From Modicisalibacter luteus DSM 23508 (GTDB lineage Bacteria > Pseudomonadota > Gammaproteobacteria > Pseudomonadales > Halomonadaceae), in the NCBI RefSeq assembly GCF_000378505.1, contig NZ_KB899992.1:248001-312000 (forward strand): 64,000 nt of DNA. The letters run 5' to 3'. Below, piece after piece: positions 42,301 through 47,003 of the stretch (position 1 is its first letter; each line of letters begins with the position of its first letter). The notes under the pieces were generated by a model. It ran no database searches. It was given only the letters and a program-made list of their open reading frames with translations, and was not told the origin of the DNA. Both the position numbers and the translations under genes were made by a program.

Positions 42301-42343
42301 GAACACTGTTTGACAACCTTTAGTGACAGCCTGGCCATTGCCC

Positions 42344-43258
42344 ATGATCAAACAACGCACTCTCAAGAATACCATGCGCGCCACTGGCGTCGGTCTGCAT
42401 TCCGGTGAGAAGGTCTACCTCACGTTGCGTCCGGCTCCGGTCAACACCGGGATCGTGTTCGTGAGAACCGATCTCGAGCCCGAGGTGCGCATACCGGCAC
42501 GTGCCGAAAACGTCACCGACACTGTGCTGTGTACTGCCCTGTCCAGCAACGGTGCCAAGGTGGCTACGGTTGAACATCTAATGTCCGCGTTCGCCGGCCT
42601 GGGTATCGACAATGCGATTGTCGAGCTCAGTGCACCGGAGGTGCCGATCATGGATGGAAGTGCAGGGCCTTTCGTCTTTCTTATCCAGTCGGCCGGTATC
42701 GAAGAGCAGAACGCAGCCAAGAAGTTCATCCGCATCAAGCGCGAAATTGGCGTGTGCGAAAACGGTAAGGAAGCGGTTTTTCTGCCTTATGACGGCTTCA
42801 AGGTATCGTTCTCCATCGATTTCGATCATCCAGTATTCGAGCATCAGAACCAGACCGCTGTAGTCGACTTCTCGACCACTTCGTTCGTCAAGGAAGTGTC
42901 ACGAGCGCGTACCTTCGGCTTCATGCGTGATCTGGAGTTTCTGCGCTCACAGAACCTGGCGCTGGGTGGCAGCCTCGACAATGCCATCGTGGTCGATGAA
43001 TATCGTATCCTGAACGAAGGCGGGCTGCGCTACGAGGATGAGTTCGTCAAACACAAGGTCCTCGATGCTATCGGCGATCTTTACCAGCTTGGTTACAGCC
43101 TGATTGGCGAGTTCCGTGGCGTAAAATCCGGTCACGCCCTCAACAACCAGTTATGTCGCGCCATGCAGGCCAACCCCGATGCCTGGGAAATCGTGACCTT
43201 CGAGGGTGAAGCCCAGAAAGCGCCGATCTCTTACGCAGCACCTGCCATGGCAGTTTAA
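42344..43258 (+). CDS. lpxC: UDP-3-O-acyl-N-acetylglucosamine deacetylase LpxC
   Basis: Zinc deacetylase and committed step of lipid A synthesis. From the ATG at 42344 ([11 protein letters not shown]) it has 304 residues, one fewer than E. coli. Zinc ligands are H78 (VEHLMSA), H237 and D241 (HKVLDAIGD); the catalytic His is in GHALNNQL. An upstream GTG at 42323 would fall in the early leader and is not needed. The C-terminus ends in [10 protein letters not shown]. coli LpxC is degraded through its C-terminus by FtsH. Confidence 0.97.
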
Positions 43259-43287
43259 TTGCACCGTATTTGGTAAACCAGGCTTCG

Positions 43288-43318
43288 ACGCCGACCCGAA
43301 CGGGTCGGCGTTTTTTTA
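43288..43318 (+). terminator. rho-independent terminator after lpxC
   Basis: ACGCCGACCC (43288-43297) pairs perfectly with GGGTCGGCGT (43302-43311) around a GAAC loop and is followed by seven T. It ends the dcw cluster. Confidence 0.95.
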
Positions 43319-43795: not shown

Positions 43796-43860
43796 GGGCT
43801 TGCTCGCCACTTTGCGAATCGATAGCGGCAATCTAACACGCAAGGGAGTCCTTCAACAGC

Positions 43861-44208
43861 ATGACCTGTGCCAACCCCTCAACGGCTCATGAGGAGCGCC
43901 CGACTCGCCGGCGGACACGTTGGTGGCTGGCGGGGTTGCTGGTCGGCTGCCTATTGCCGGCGGGGCTGGTACAGGCGGAAGCATTGCGCTTGGCGGAAAG
44001 GCTGACCCAGATCTGCCTGATGGCGCCCGACGCCATCCGTGCCCAGTCACGTCGAGTCGCGCGTCGCAAGGCACGACGCTCCCTCCCGCTACATGTCGCC
44101 CTGTCGCGTCGTCCCATTATTCCAGCCTGCCGGCCGGCTATGGGAATGCCCTGTGCCGGGCAGGATGTCCTGAACCGACGCGGTCCGCCGCAGGCTTTAT
44201 TGGCCTGA
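43861..44208 (+). CDS. putative SecM-like secretion-monitor/arrest peptide upstream of secA
   Basis: I do not recognise a named family. The 115-residue product has a long basic N-region (RRRTR at 16-20), a hydrophobic core ([17 protein letters not shown], 21-37), a signal peptidase-like VQAEA site and a very basic mature part. It ends with R107-G-P-P110 and only five more residues (QALLA). E. coli SecM likewise has a signal peptide, sits before secA, and ends IRAGP plus four residues. RAPP-type motifs near C-termini are known to stall ribosomes. Codon use is high-GC at third positions, as in real genes here. GGGAG lies 12 bases before the ATG. Its codons 102-105 can pair with the secA ribosome site. 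Stalling is inferred, not shown. Confidence 0.7.
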
Positions 44209-44272
44209 CGCCATCACGCGACCATGGCGGGATACCTCGATCTTCCGCCAGTACCTTTTCCGTTTCAGGACA
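44166..44272 (+). promoter_or_regulatory. predicted RNA hairpin sequestering the secA ribosome binding site
   Basis: TGTCCTGAA (44166-44174, inside the small ORF) is a perfect 9-base complement of TTCAGGACA (44264-44272), which contains the secA Shine-Dalgarno AGGA (44267-44270), six bases before the ATG at 44277. A ribosome paused at the RGPP codons (44179-44190) would cover the left arm and free the secA start. The intervening 89 bases can form the loop and the small ORF's stop. Confidence 0.6.
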
Positions 44273-44276
44273 ACTT

Positions 44277-47003
44277 ATGCTTAATACCGTTCTCCGTAAA
44301 TTGGTCGGCTCCAGGAACGACCGCGAAGTCAAACGCATGGGCAAGCTGGTCAGCGAGGTCAATGCGTTTGAAGAAAGCACCCAGGCGCTGTCCGATGCCG
44401 ACCTCCAGGCGCGTACCGAGCAGTTCCGCGAGCGTCTGCGTCAGGGCGAATCGCTCGACAAGCTATTGCCAGAGGCCTTCGCTACCGTACGCGAGGCCAG
44501 CCGTCGCGTGATGGGGATGCGTCACTTCGATGTTCAGCTGATCGGCGGCATCACTTTGCACCGTGGGCGTATCGCCGAAATGAAGACCGGTGAAGGCAAG
44601 ACCCTCGTTGCTACCCTGGCCGTTTATCTCAATGCGCTTCCTGCGCGGGGCGTTCATGTGGTGACCGTCAACGATTACCTGGCGCGGCGCGACGCCGATT
44701 GGATGCGGCCTCTCTACGAATACCTCGGTCTCAGCGTCGGCGTAATCTATTCCGGCCAGACGTCGGGCCAGAAGCGCGAGGCTTATGCCTGCGATATTAC
44801 CTATGGCACCAACAACGAGTACGGCTTCGACTATCTGCGCGACAACATGGCCTTCTCGCTCGAGGACAAGGTCCAGCGCGAGCTTCATTATGCGATTGTC
44901 GATGAGGTCGACTCGATTCTTATCGACGAAGCACGTACGCCGCTGATCATCTCGGGTCCGGTCGAGGAAAACACGCAGATGTATCAGGTCGTCAATCGCC
45001 TGGCGACCGAGCTCAAGCGCTGCGAGGACGAGGAAGACCCCTCGACCGGCGACTTTACCCTCGACGAGAAGCAAAAGCAGGTCGAACTCACCGAAGAGGG
45101 CCACCACAAGGTCGAGGAACTGATGCGCCGTCAGGGCCTGCTGAGCGAAGGCGATTCGCTGTATGCTGCCCAGAATCTCGGTCTCTTGCACCATATGCAT
45201 TCGGCGTTGCGTGCACGCCACCTTTTCCATCGTGATGTGGATTACATCGTCAATGACGGCGAGGTGGTCATCGTCGACGAGCACACCGGGCGCAGCATGC
45301 CGGGGCGTCGCTGGTCAGAGGGTCTGCATCAGGCCGTCGAGGCCAAGGAAGGCGTAGCCATCCAGAAGGAAAGTCAGACCCTAGCGTCGACCACCTTCCA
45401 GAACTATTTCCGTCTCTACGAGAAGCTGTCCGGCATGACCGGGACCGCCGATACCGAGGCGTTCGAGTTCCGTCAGATTTATGGCCTGGATGTCACCGTC
45501 ATCCCGACCAACAAACCCATTACCCGTATCGATTACAACGATCTGGTGTATCTCTCCGCCGAAGAGAAGTTCGAGGCGATCATAGAGGACGTAAAGACCC
45601 AGCGCGAGGCCGGACGACCCATTCTGGTGGGTACCGCTTCCATCGAAACGTCGGAACTGCTGGCGGGGCTGATGAAGCAGGGCGGCATTCCGCACAATGT
45701 CCTCAATGCCAAGCAACACCAGAGCGAAGCCGAAATCATCGCCCAGGCTGGGCGGCCCGGTGCCGTAACCATCGCAACAAACATGGCCGGCCGTGGTACC
45801 GACATCGTACTAGGGGGCAACTGGGAAGCCGAAGTCGCCAAGCTAGACGATCCAACCCAGGCCCAGATCGACGAGATCAAGGCCGAGTGGCAGAAGCGCC
45901 ATGATGCCGTGCTGGCGGCAGGGGGGCTGCATGTCATCGGCTCCGAGCGTCACGAGTCCCGGCGTATCGACAATCAGTTGCGCGGCCGGGCTGGCCGGCA
46001 GGGGGATCCAGGGTCGACGCGCTTCTTCCTGTCGCTGGAAGACAACCTCATGCGCTTGTTCGGTTCCGAGCGCGTTCAGCGTTTGATGCAGGCGCTGGGG
46101 CTGGAACGCGGTGAAGCCATCGAGCACAAGATGGTGTCCAATGCCGTCGAGCGTGCCCAGAAGAAAGTCGAAGGCCGTAACTTCGACATTCGCAAGCAAT
46201 TGCTCGAGTACGATGACGTGGCCAATGATCAGCGCCGGGTAATATACGAGCAGCGCGACGAGATTCTCGGGGCCGAGGACGTTTCCCAGAACGTAGCCGG
46301 CATTCGCGAGGAAATTCTCAATGGCACCATCAGCGACTACGTGCCGCCGCAGAGTCTGCCCGAGCAATGGGATCTCGATGGGCTTCAGCAGGTGCTCAAG
46401 ACGGAATTCAATCTCGATGTGCCGCTGCAGCAATGGGCTGAAGAAGATGAGAACTTCCACGAAGAGGTGCTGCGCGAGCGGCTACAGAACAGTCATCGTG
46501 AGGTCTATGCCGCCAAGGTCGAAGCCATCGGCGAGGAGCTGATTCGCCGCTTCGAGAAGCAAGTCATGCTCCAGGTGCTCGATACCCGCTGGAAAGAGCA
46601 TCTGCAGTCGATGGACCATCTGCGTCGCGGGATCCACCTGCGCGGTTATGCTCAGAAGAACCCCAAGCAAGAGTACAAGCGCGAAGCCTTCGAACTGTTC
46701 CAGGCGCTTCTCTTCAACATCAAGCACGACGTCACGCGCATACTCAGCCACGTTCAGGTGCGTCGCGAGGAAGAAGTCGAGGAACTCGAGCGCAAGCGCC
46801 GCGACACTCTCGAGCGCGAACGCGCCACAGCGCAACAGACTCGGGAAGATTCAGCTCGTGAAGACGCTGCCAGCGAGGTCGACGAAGGGGCCCAGGACGA
46901 CAGGCAGACTGTGCGTCGAGAAGGACCCAAAGTAGGGCGCAACGACCCGTGCCCGTGCGGATCGGGTAAGAAGTACAAGCAGTGTCATGGCAAGCTAGCC
47001 TAG
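44277..47003 (+). CDS. secA: preprotein translocase ATPase SecA
   Basis: Motor that drives unfolded preproteins through SecYEG. It has 908 residues from the ATG at 44277 ([13 protein letters not shown]), like E. coli (901). Walker A MKTGEGKT is at 102-109 and the DEAD-type [13 protein letters not shown] follows. NBD2 has [14 protein letters not shown] and [11 protein letters not shown]. The C-terminal zinc motif [14 protein letters not shown], for SecB and lipid contact, is complete. A frame open back to 43920 overlaps the small ORF and is not the true start. Confidence 0.98.

Follow-up and report, generated by a model that had tools for sequence, protein, structure and literature searches.

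The uORF-secA locus

The window analysed here is a 64,000-nucleotide stretch of the Modicisalibacter luteus DSM 23508 genome, and it carries on its plus strand secA (44277..47003), recognized by its SecA Pfam domains and the presumed regulated gene. Directly upstream, on the same strand, lies a 115-residue upstream open reading frame (uORF; 43861..44208), a candidate arrest peptide of the RQH type as judged from its reading frame, homologues and conservation, whose stop codon is separated from the secA start (44277) by 68 nt. The first-pass annotation had described a small ORF before secA with a signal-peptide-like start, an extended basic N-region and a C-terminal R-G-P-P followed by five residues, and this description is confirmed: RGPP occupies residues 107–110 and is followed by QALLA. 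The protein is built from a basic n-region (RRRTR), a hydrophobic core, a cleavage-like site, a basic spacer and the sequence D102-V-L-N-R-R107-G-P-P110. The signal peptide region, supported by conservation, spans residues 1–39 (43861..43977), with a class-I-like cleavage site placed by inspection after A39 (VQA-EA). Closer to the stop codon, the codons of D102-V103-L104-N105 (GAT GTC CTG AAC; 44164..44175) encode a conserved peptide motif and also form the 5' strand of a predicted helix, the 3' strand of which is the Shine-Dalgarno (SD) region of secA (44263..44274). The codons of the arrest motif, R107 G108 P109 P110 (44179..44190), were assigned from conservation among parsed loci.

Upstream of the uORF, lpxC (42323–43258) is followed by a terminator-like hairpin on the plus strand (43287..43312), the scan returning one such site against 0.9 expected from shuffled sequences; this hairpin probably separates lpxC from the uORF-secA unit. 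The gene dciA (PF05258) is found on the minus strand between lpxC and the uORF, an arrangement not shared by E. coli K-12. The scan detected no terminator-like site between the uORF and secA, and the two are therefore probably carried on one transcript. No sigma-70 consensus promoter was found before the uORF at the scan's threshold. SecD/SecF and YidC genes were also identified in the same genome. By eye, a TANCAT-like box and a GGAG-type ribosome-binding site recur before the uORF in many genera (43830–43860 in the window, which itself reads TAACAC).

Distribution in the Halomonadaceae

Homologues of the uORF were identified in 33 of 58 related genomes searched, which amounts to 33/37 of its own family and 0/21 of the others. 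A search with an alignment of 30 homologues found one in 234 of 250 sampled Halomonadaceae genomes, and the 16 genomes without a match all belong to four genera, g3, g5, g22 and g24. The uORF is intact in close relatives, as the earlier reading required, two of them at 89–90% identity. Among the 80 matches kept of 159 in named genomes, M. xianhensis and Halomonas sp. McH1-25 stand at 89–90%, which marks the window as Modicisalibacter-like. The genera represented, which identify the family as Halomonadaceae, include Modicisalibacter, Halomonas, Chromohalobacter, Onishia, Billgrantia, Litchfieldella, Vreelandella and Aidingimonas. Genera are numbered here such that g1 is the window's genus, with M. 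xianhensis and M. tunisiensis, while g2 contains Chromohalobacter sarecensis and g11 contains Vreelandella aquamarina. In one example each of g3 and g5 (L033 and L032), the ORF directly before secA is peptidase-M23-like by inspection, and no RGPP ORF is visible; the g22 example likewise yielded no RGPP ORF.

A survey of the GTDB order collected 90 secA loci from 126 genomes, of which 86 were parsed. Only the two Halomonadaceae among these 86 loci have a RAPP or RGPP uORF within 450 nt upstream of secA, and none of the 84 parsed loci from other families of the order has one (0/84). A different RAPP-like tetrapeptide, lacking a strong hydrophobic stretch, was found at one of these 84.

Three homologues deserve separate mention. 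The match in G005 was flagged with an in-frame stop; the parsed ORF (L025) is intact, and the TGA is probably the ORF's own stop codon. A homologue at G220:C2:23118-23468 was flagged with one in-frame TAA. At L102 (G101:C1:3081476-3082487), the uORF has no stop and continues in frame into secA, with the secA AUG and the RGPP kept; read-through would yield a signal-peptide-RGPP-SecA fusion, and a sequencing error is possible.

Conservation of the peptide

Conservation was analyzed on 133 parsed loci: 30 from the 58-genome search, three reached via secA and 100 chosen across genera among the matches listed. The first parse left ten loci without a secA start and L102 without a uORF; a broader secA pattern recovered nine, while L036 and L102 were added by hand, aided by their motif. 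The parse required the signal core to end in a Cys, which every locus did, and set no condition on the motif. RGPP conservation among orthologues had been set as a test in the first-pass annotation, and an R[GA]PP near the C-terminus is present in 133/133 parsed loci (130 RGPP and three RAPP, in L016, L021 and L036). The search that gathered these loci scored overall similarity to a profile containing the motif, and could therefore have missed a homologue without it. The R[AG]PP motif is absent from 19,682 residues of window open frames of at least 250 amino acids, coding or not, which, together with its presence in all homologous loci, argues that it did not arise by chance. The tail that follows it measures 1–15 residues, L102 excepted.

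Genus-weighted conservation is 1.00 at R107, P109 and P110 and 0.94 at G108, and remains high just before the motif (D102 0.90, R106 0.90, L104 0.84, V103 0.83); the means for spacer residues 71–98 and for the tail are 0.35 and 0.21. Synonymous codon identity between genera at RGPP is 0.82–0.97 of the codon-usage expectation, and no synonymous constraint is apparent at the D-V-L codons when genera are compared, which indicates that D-V-L is kept for the peptide. The idea that D-V-L is kept solely for RNA pairing was rejected on the same ground. With the motif kept, the spacer and tail variable and the synonymous codons free, selection acts on the peptide and not on the DNA, and this sequence pattern fits what would be expected of an arrest peptide.

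The signal core W21–P33 (43921–43959) is nearly invariant, with a genus-weighted mean of 0.91 and values of 1.00 at L27, C30, L31 and P33. Such near-invariance is unusual for a signal peptide. The L-V-G-C within this core also fits a lipobox pattern. Between the signal peptide and the variable spacer, a basic block at residues 43–73 (43987–44079; ...ICLMAPxAIRAxSRRxARR) is moderately conserved.

Relationship to the RQH arrest peptides

The Halomonadaceae are, we assume, among the Oceanospirillales members that were placed in Pseudomonadales by GTDB. Most members of Oceanospirillales were moved in this way (PMC7498684). The RQH family of RAPP-like uORFs was defined by Fujiwara et al. 2024 (PMC10987492) in a screen of more than 30,000 genomes; its groups have no overall similarity to each other. 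One of them, uA_RQH_Pseudomonadales, precedes secA in part of the GTDB order Pseudomonadales. Its representative, with R109GPP, stalls ribosomes of both E. coli and B. subtilis, the arrested fraction exceeding 0.9 (PMC10987492). Like the RQH peptides, the uORF is short, lies before secA on the same strand, has no annotated function, carries an N-terminal signal (by inspection and conservation) and ends in a conserved RAPP-like motif. From A39 to P109 it counts 70 residues, which exceeds the more than 30 residues set for RQH peptides between signal and conserved end and is close to the median of 71 for the short SecM class (PMC10987492).

The likeness to uA_RQH_Pseudomonadales extends to the position before secA, the N-terminal localization signal, the RGPP near the C-terminus and probably the GTDB order, and there is possibly no difference between the two, as far as the group is described in PMC10987492. 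R109 of the representative corresponds to the motif position in 6/29 homologues (L014, L015, L017, L022, L023 and L025), and this shared position, combined with the order survey, makes it very likely that the uORF belongs to the published group. The main text of PMC10987492 does not contain 'Halomonas' or 'Halomonad', and the portions of it considered here describe neither a secA induction test nor a D-V-L-codon helix for uA_RQH_Pseudomonadales; among the literature matches listed, no paper deals with the uORF in Halomonadaceae. The first-pass annotation had proposed a possible new arrest peptide before secA expected to work like SecM. The candidate itself is supported, but the novelty of its kind does not stand: RGPP-type secA uORFs from part of the Pseudomonadales were named in 2024 and their representative stalls ribosomes (PMC10987492), so the uORF does not form a class of its own. 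The present analysis contributes the family-wide conservation pattern, by which an arrest peptide of a published kind is traced through nearly every genome sampled from a halophile family, and a candidate codon-encoded anti-Shine-Dalgarno in the window's genus.

ApdA and ApdP lie upstream of secDF. They share the R-[AG]-P-P core with the uORF and probably the same block of peptide bond formation, which is the mechanism described for RAPP (PMC10951233); unlike the uORF, they occur in Actinobacteriota and Alphaproteobacteria (PMC10987492). Both RAPP and RGPP support arrest in ApcA and SecM reporters, with RGPP the stronger (PMC12992588), and the Halomonadaceae loci display a natural RGPP/RAPP exchange at this arrest core. 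The closest regulatory parallel comes from uDF_RQH_Enterobacterales of Alteromonas naphthalenivorans, which has RGPP and in which, as shown with reporters, a stem-loop partly masks the downstream SD and arrest relieves the masking; this uORF controls secDF2, unlike the one before secA studied here (PMC10987492).

A predicted RNA switch in the window's genus

In the window, the secA SD region TTTCAGGACAAC (44263–44274) pairs at 10/12 positions with the D-V-L-N codons GATGTCCTGAAC (44164–44175). The fold of 44160–44290 has a predicted energy of −47.1 kcal/mol (z −3.4) and none of 200 shuffles is as stable (0/200), whereas the longer fold of 44140–44310 is not unusually stable (z −1.0). The predicted cost of opening the SD/AUG region falls from 10.15 kcal/mol in the free RNA to 5.33 once the part covered by a stalled ribosome is removed, and in that stalled state the minimum-energy structure still pairs part of the SD region. 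Synonymous recodings of the uORF give an opening cost of 5.88 ± 1.42, with 0/25 reaching the observed 10.15.

The pairing recurs within g1, where 9–12 of the 12 pairs form in 11/14 species in the same register to the AUG; the hypothesis arose from the window itself, and leaving it out the count is 10/13. Some of the kept pairs differ by an exchange of G-C for G-U. L007, L016 and L021, the three that depart from this pattern, are also altered in residues at or before the motif, and RNAalifold supports the D-V-L helix in g1 for 11/14 sequences, these three having been left out by choice. In the accessibility analysis, the mean z of the opening cost in g1 is 1.37, and 5/14 loci lie above 1.64. 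On the basis of these structure predictions, we lean towards a D-V-L/Shine-Dalgarno switch that operates in the window's genus, at somewhat better than an even chance.

Together with the reading frame, its position and conservation and the selection on its peptide, the predicted pairing beyond synonymous nulls, seen in the window and in several relatives, is directly established for the uORF. The favoured account is the following cycle. The signal peptide would engage the Sec machinery. Slow export would leave the ribosome stalled at the motif, P109 (44185–44187) occupying the P site and P110 the A site, since R-G-P-P is proposed to prevent peptide bond formation. This stall position is deduced from toeprints of the RQH family, in which the third residue of the motif occupies the P site of the arrested ribosome (PMC10987492). 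In the free mRNA of the window's genus, the D-V-L-N codons would pair with the secA SD region. A stalled ribosome would cover these codons and free the SD, increasing SecA synthesis, and brisk export would pull on the peptide, release the stall and allow the helix to reform. Signal-peptide function, pulling-dependent release and secA regulation are features that we infer, regulation by analogy with SecM and the reporter-tested uDF_RQH_Enterobacterales. That the uORF is an arrest peptide controlling secA is nonetheless the reading in which we have good confidence. The RNA switch proposed with it is open to test: the codons beside the arrest motif would serve both as a peptide signal and as a mask of the secA start site.

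RNA pairing in other genera and the route to secA

The accessibility analysis used 25 synonymous controls per locus and covered 129 of the 133 loci, the four whose motif lies more than 180 nt from the AUG being left out. Opening costs are higher overall than the synonymous null when 17 genera are compared (11/17 positive, one-sided Wilcoxon p = 0.012), with only 25/129 loci above a z of 1.64. A direct duplex test found the locus's own pairing weaker than the synonymous mean in g2, g7, g11, g12, g13, g14, g16 and g17. Genera other than g1 average 7.0–9.5 of 12 pairs in a count that takes the best of nine offsets, so 9/12 alone is unremarkable. RNAalifold, run genus by genus on eight genera (g1, g2, g4, g11, g12, g13, g16 and g20), gave no clear common SD-masking structure in g4, g11 or g20, and in g2 its consensus pairs the SD with the R-G-P codons and not with the D-V-L codons. 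A family-wide Shine-Dalgarno/D-V-L helix was rejected as a general feature, being strong in g1 and not seen in g11, g16, g12 and others. With the pairing strong in g1 and not seen in several genera, structure prediction backs the switch for the window's genus but not as a rule for the whole family.

These differences bear on a rival explanation that is identical to the preferred one up to its last step and thus overlaps with it: the uORF would be an arrest peptide, but secA would be controlled otherwise, by translational coupling, mRNA protection or relief of Rho termination, and the SD pairing in the window's genus would be incidental or accessory. The motif is universal among the parsed loci, yet in several genera no masking of the SD by the uORF codons is apparent, loci above z 1.64 numbering 0/28 in g11, 0/7 in g16 and 0/7 in g12 (g4 has 1/15). 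Moreover, anything from 15 to 207 nt separates the uORF from secA (L102 set aside). Both findings would suit such a route. It would leave unexplained why the pairing holds a single AUG register in 11/14 species of the window's genus despite a gap that varies there from 67 to 146 nt, and why the genus means of g2, g9, g10, g15 and g23 exceed the synonymous null by 1.7 to 4.5 standard deviations. We regard control of secA by such another route as rather unlikely.

In a related idea our confidence is low, if slightly greater. The arrest peptide may be old and fixed in the Halomonadaceae and its RNA output repeatedly rewired, the D-V-L codons acting as the secA anti-Shine-Dalgarno in Modicisalibacter-like species, the R-G-P codons doing so in Chromohalobacter-like species and masking being lost in Vreelandella-like species. 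In the last of these, arrest would then have to reach secA by another route.

Comparison with SecM and with secreted proteins

E. coli SecM resembles the uORF in its position before secA, its signal peptide, a late R-containing Gly-Pro motif and a short tail. The SD masking of the SecM model is predicted here in the window and most of its genus, and is not seen in several other genera. Placement between lpxC and secA as in E. coli, with the signal peptide, late motif and short tail, might suggest a divergent true SecM orthologue in which RAGP was exchanged for RGPP. The sequences argue otherwise, in line with the first-pass view that the two are unrelated beyond these features: hhalign gives a probability of 0.1% (E 0.67) and BLASTP an E of 0.95 against E. 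coli SecM, the Pfam SecM family matches none of 30 members at E up to 1, and the SecM arrest sequence FxxxxWIxxxxGIRAGP (PMC10987492) is absent from the uORF, which has RGPP in its place. In addition, the lack of an RGPP or RAPP uORF at the 84 parsed secA loci of other families in the order means that no bridge to SecM is seen. Homology to SecM was rejected, since hhalign, BLASTP and Pfam SecM all gave no support, and descent from a true SecM is thus highly improbable.

Least likely of all is a small secreted protein whose C-terminal RGPP has a periplasmic function and stalls no ribosome, as the signal-peptide-like start, the conserved basic region and the unusually conserved signal core could suggest, given that an R-[GA]-P-P with 1–15 unconserved residues behind it suits an arrest motif better than a folded domain, that neither Pfam nor NCBIfam gave a match to the window's protein at E up to 10 and no Pfam family is common to more than one of the 30 members, and that the same motif stalls ribosomes in the published representative (PMC10987492).
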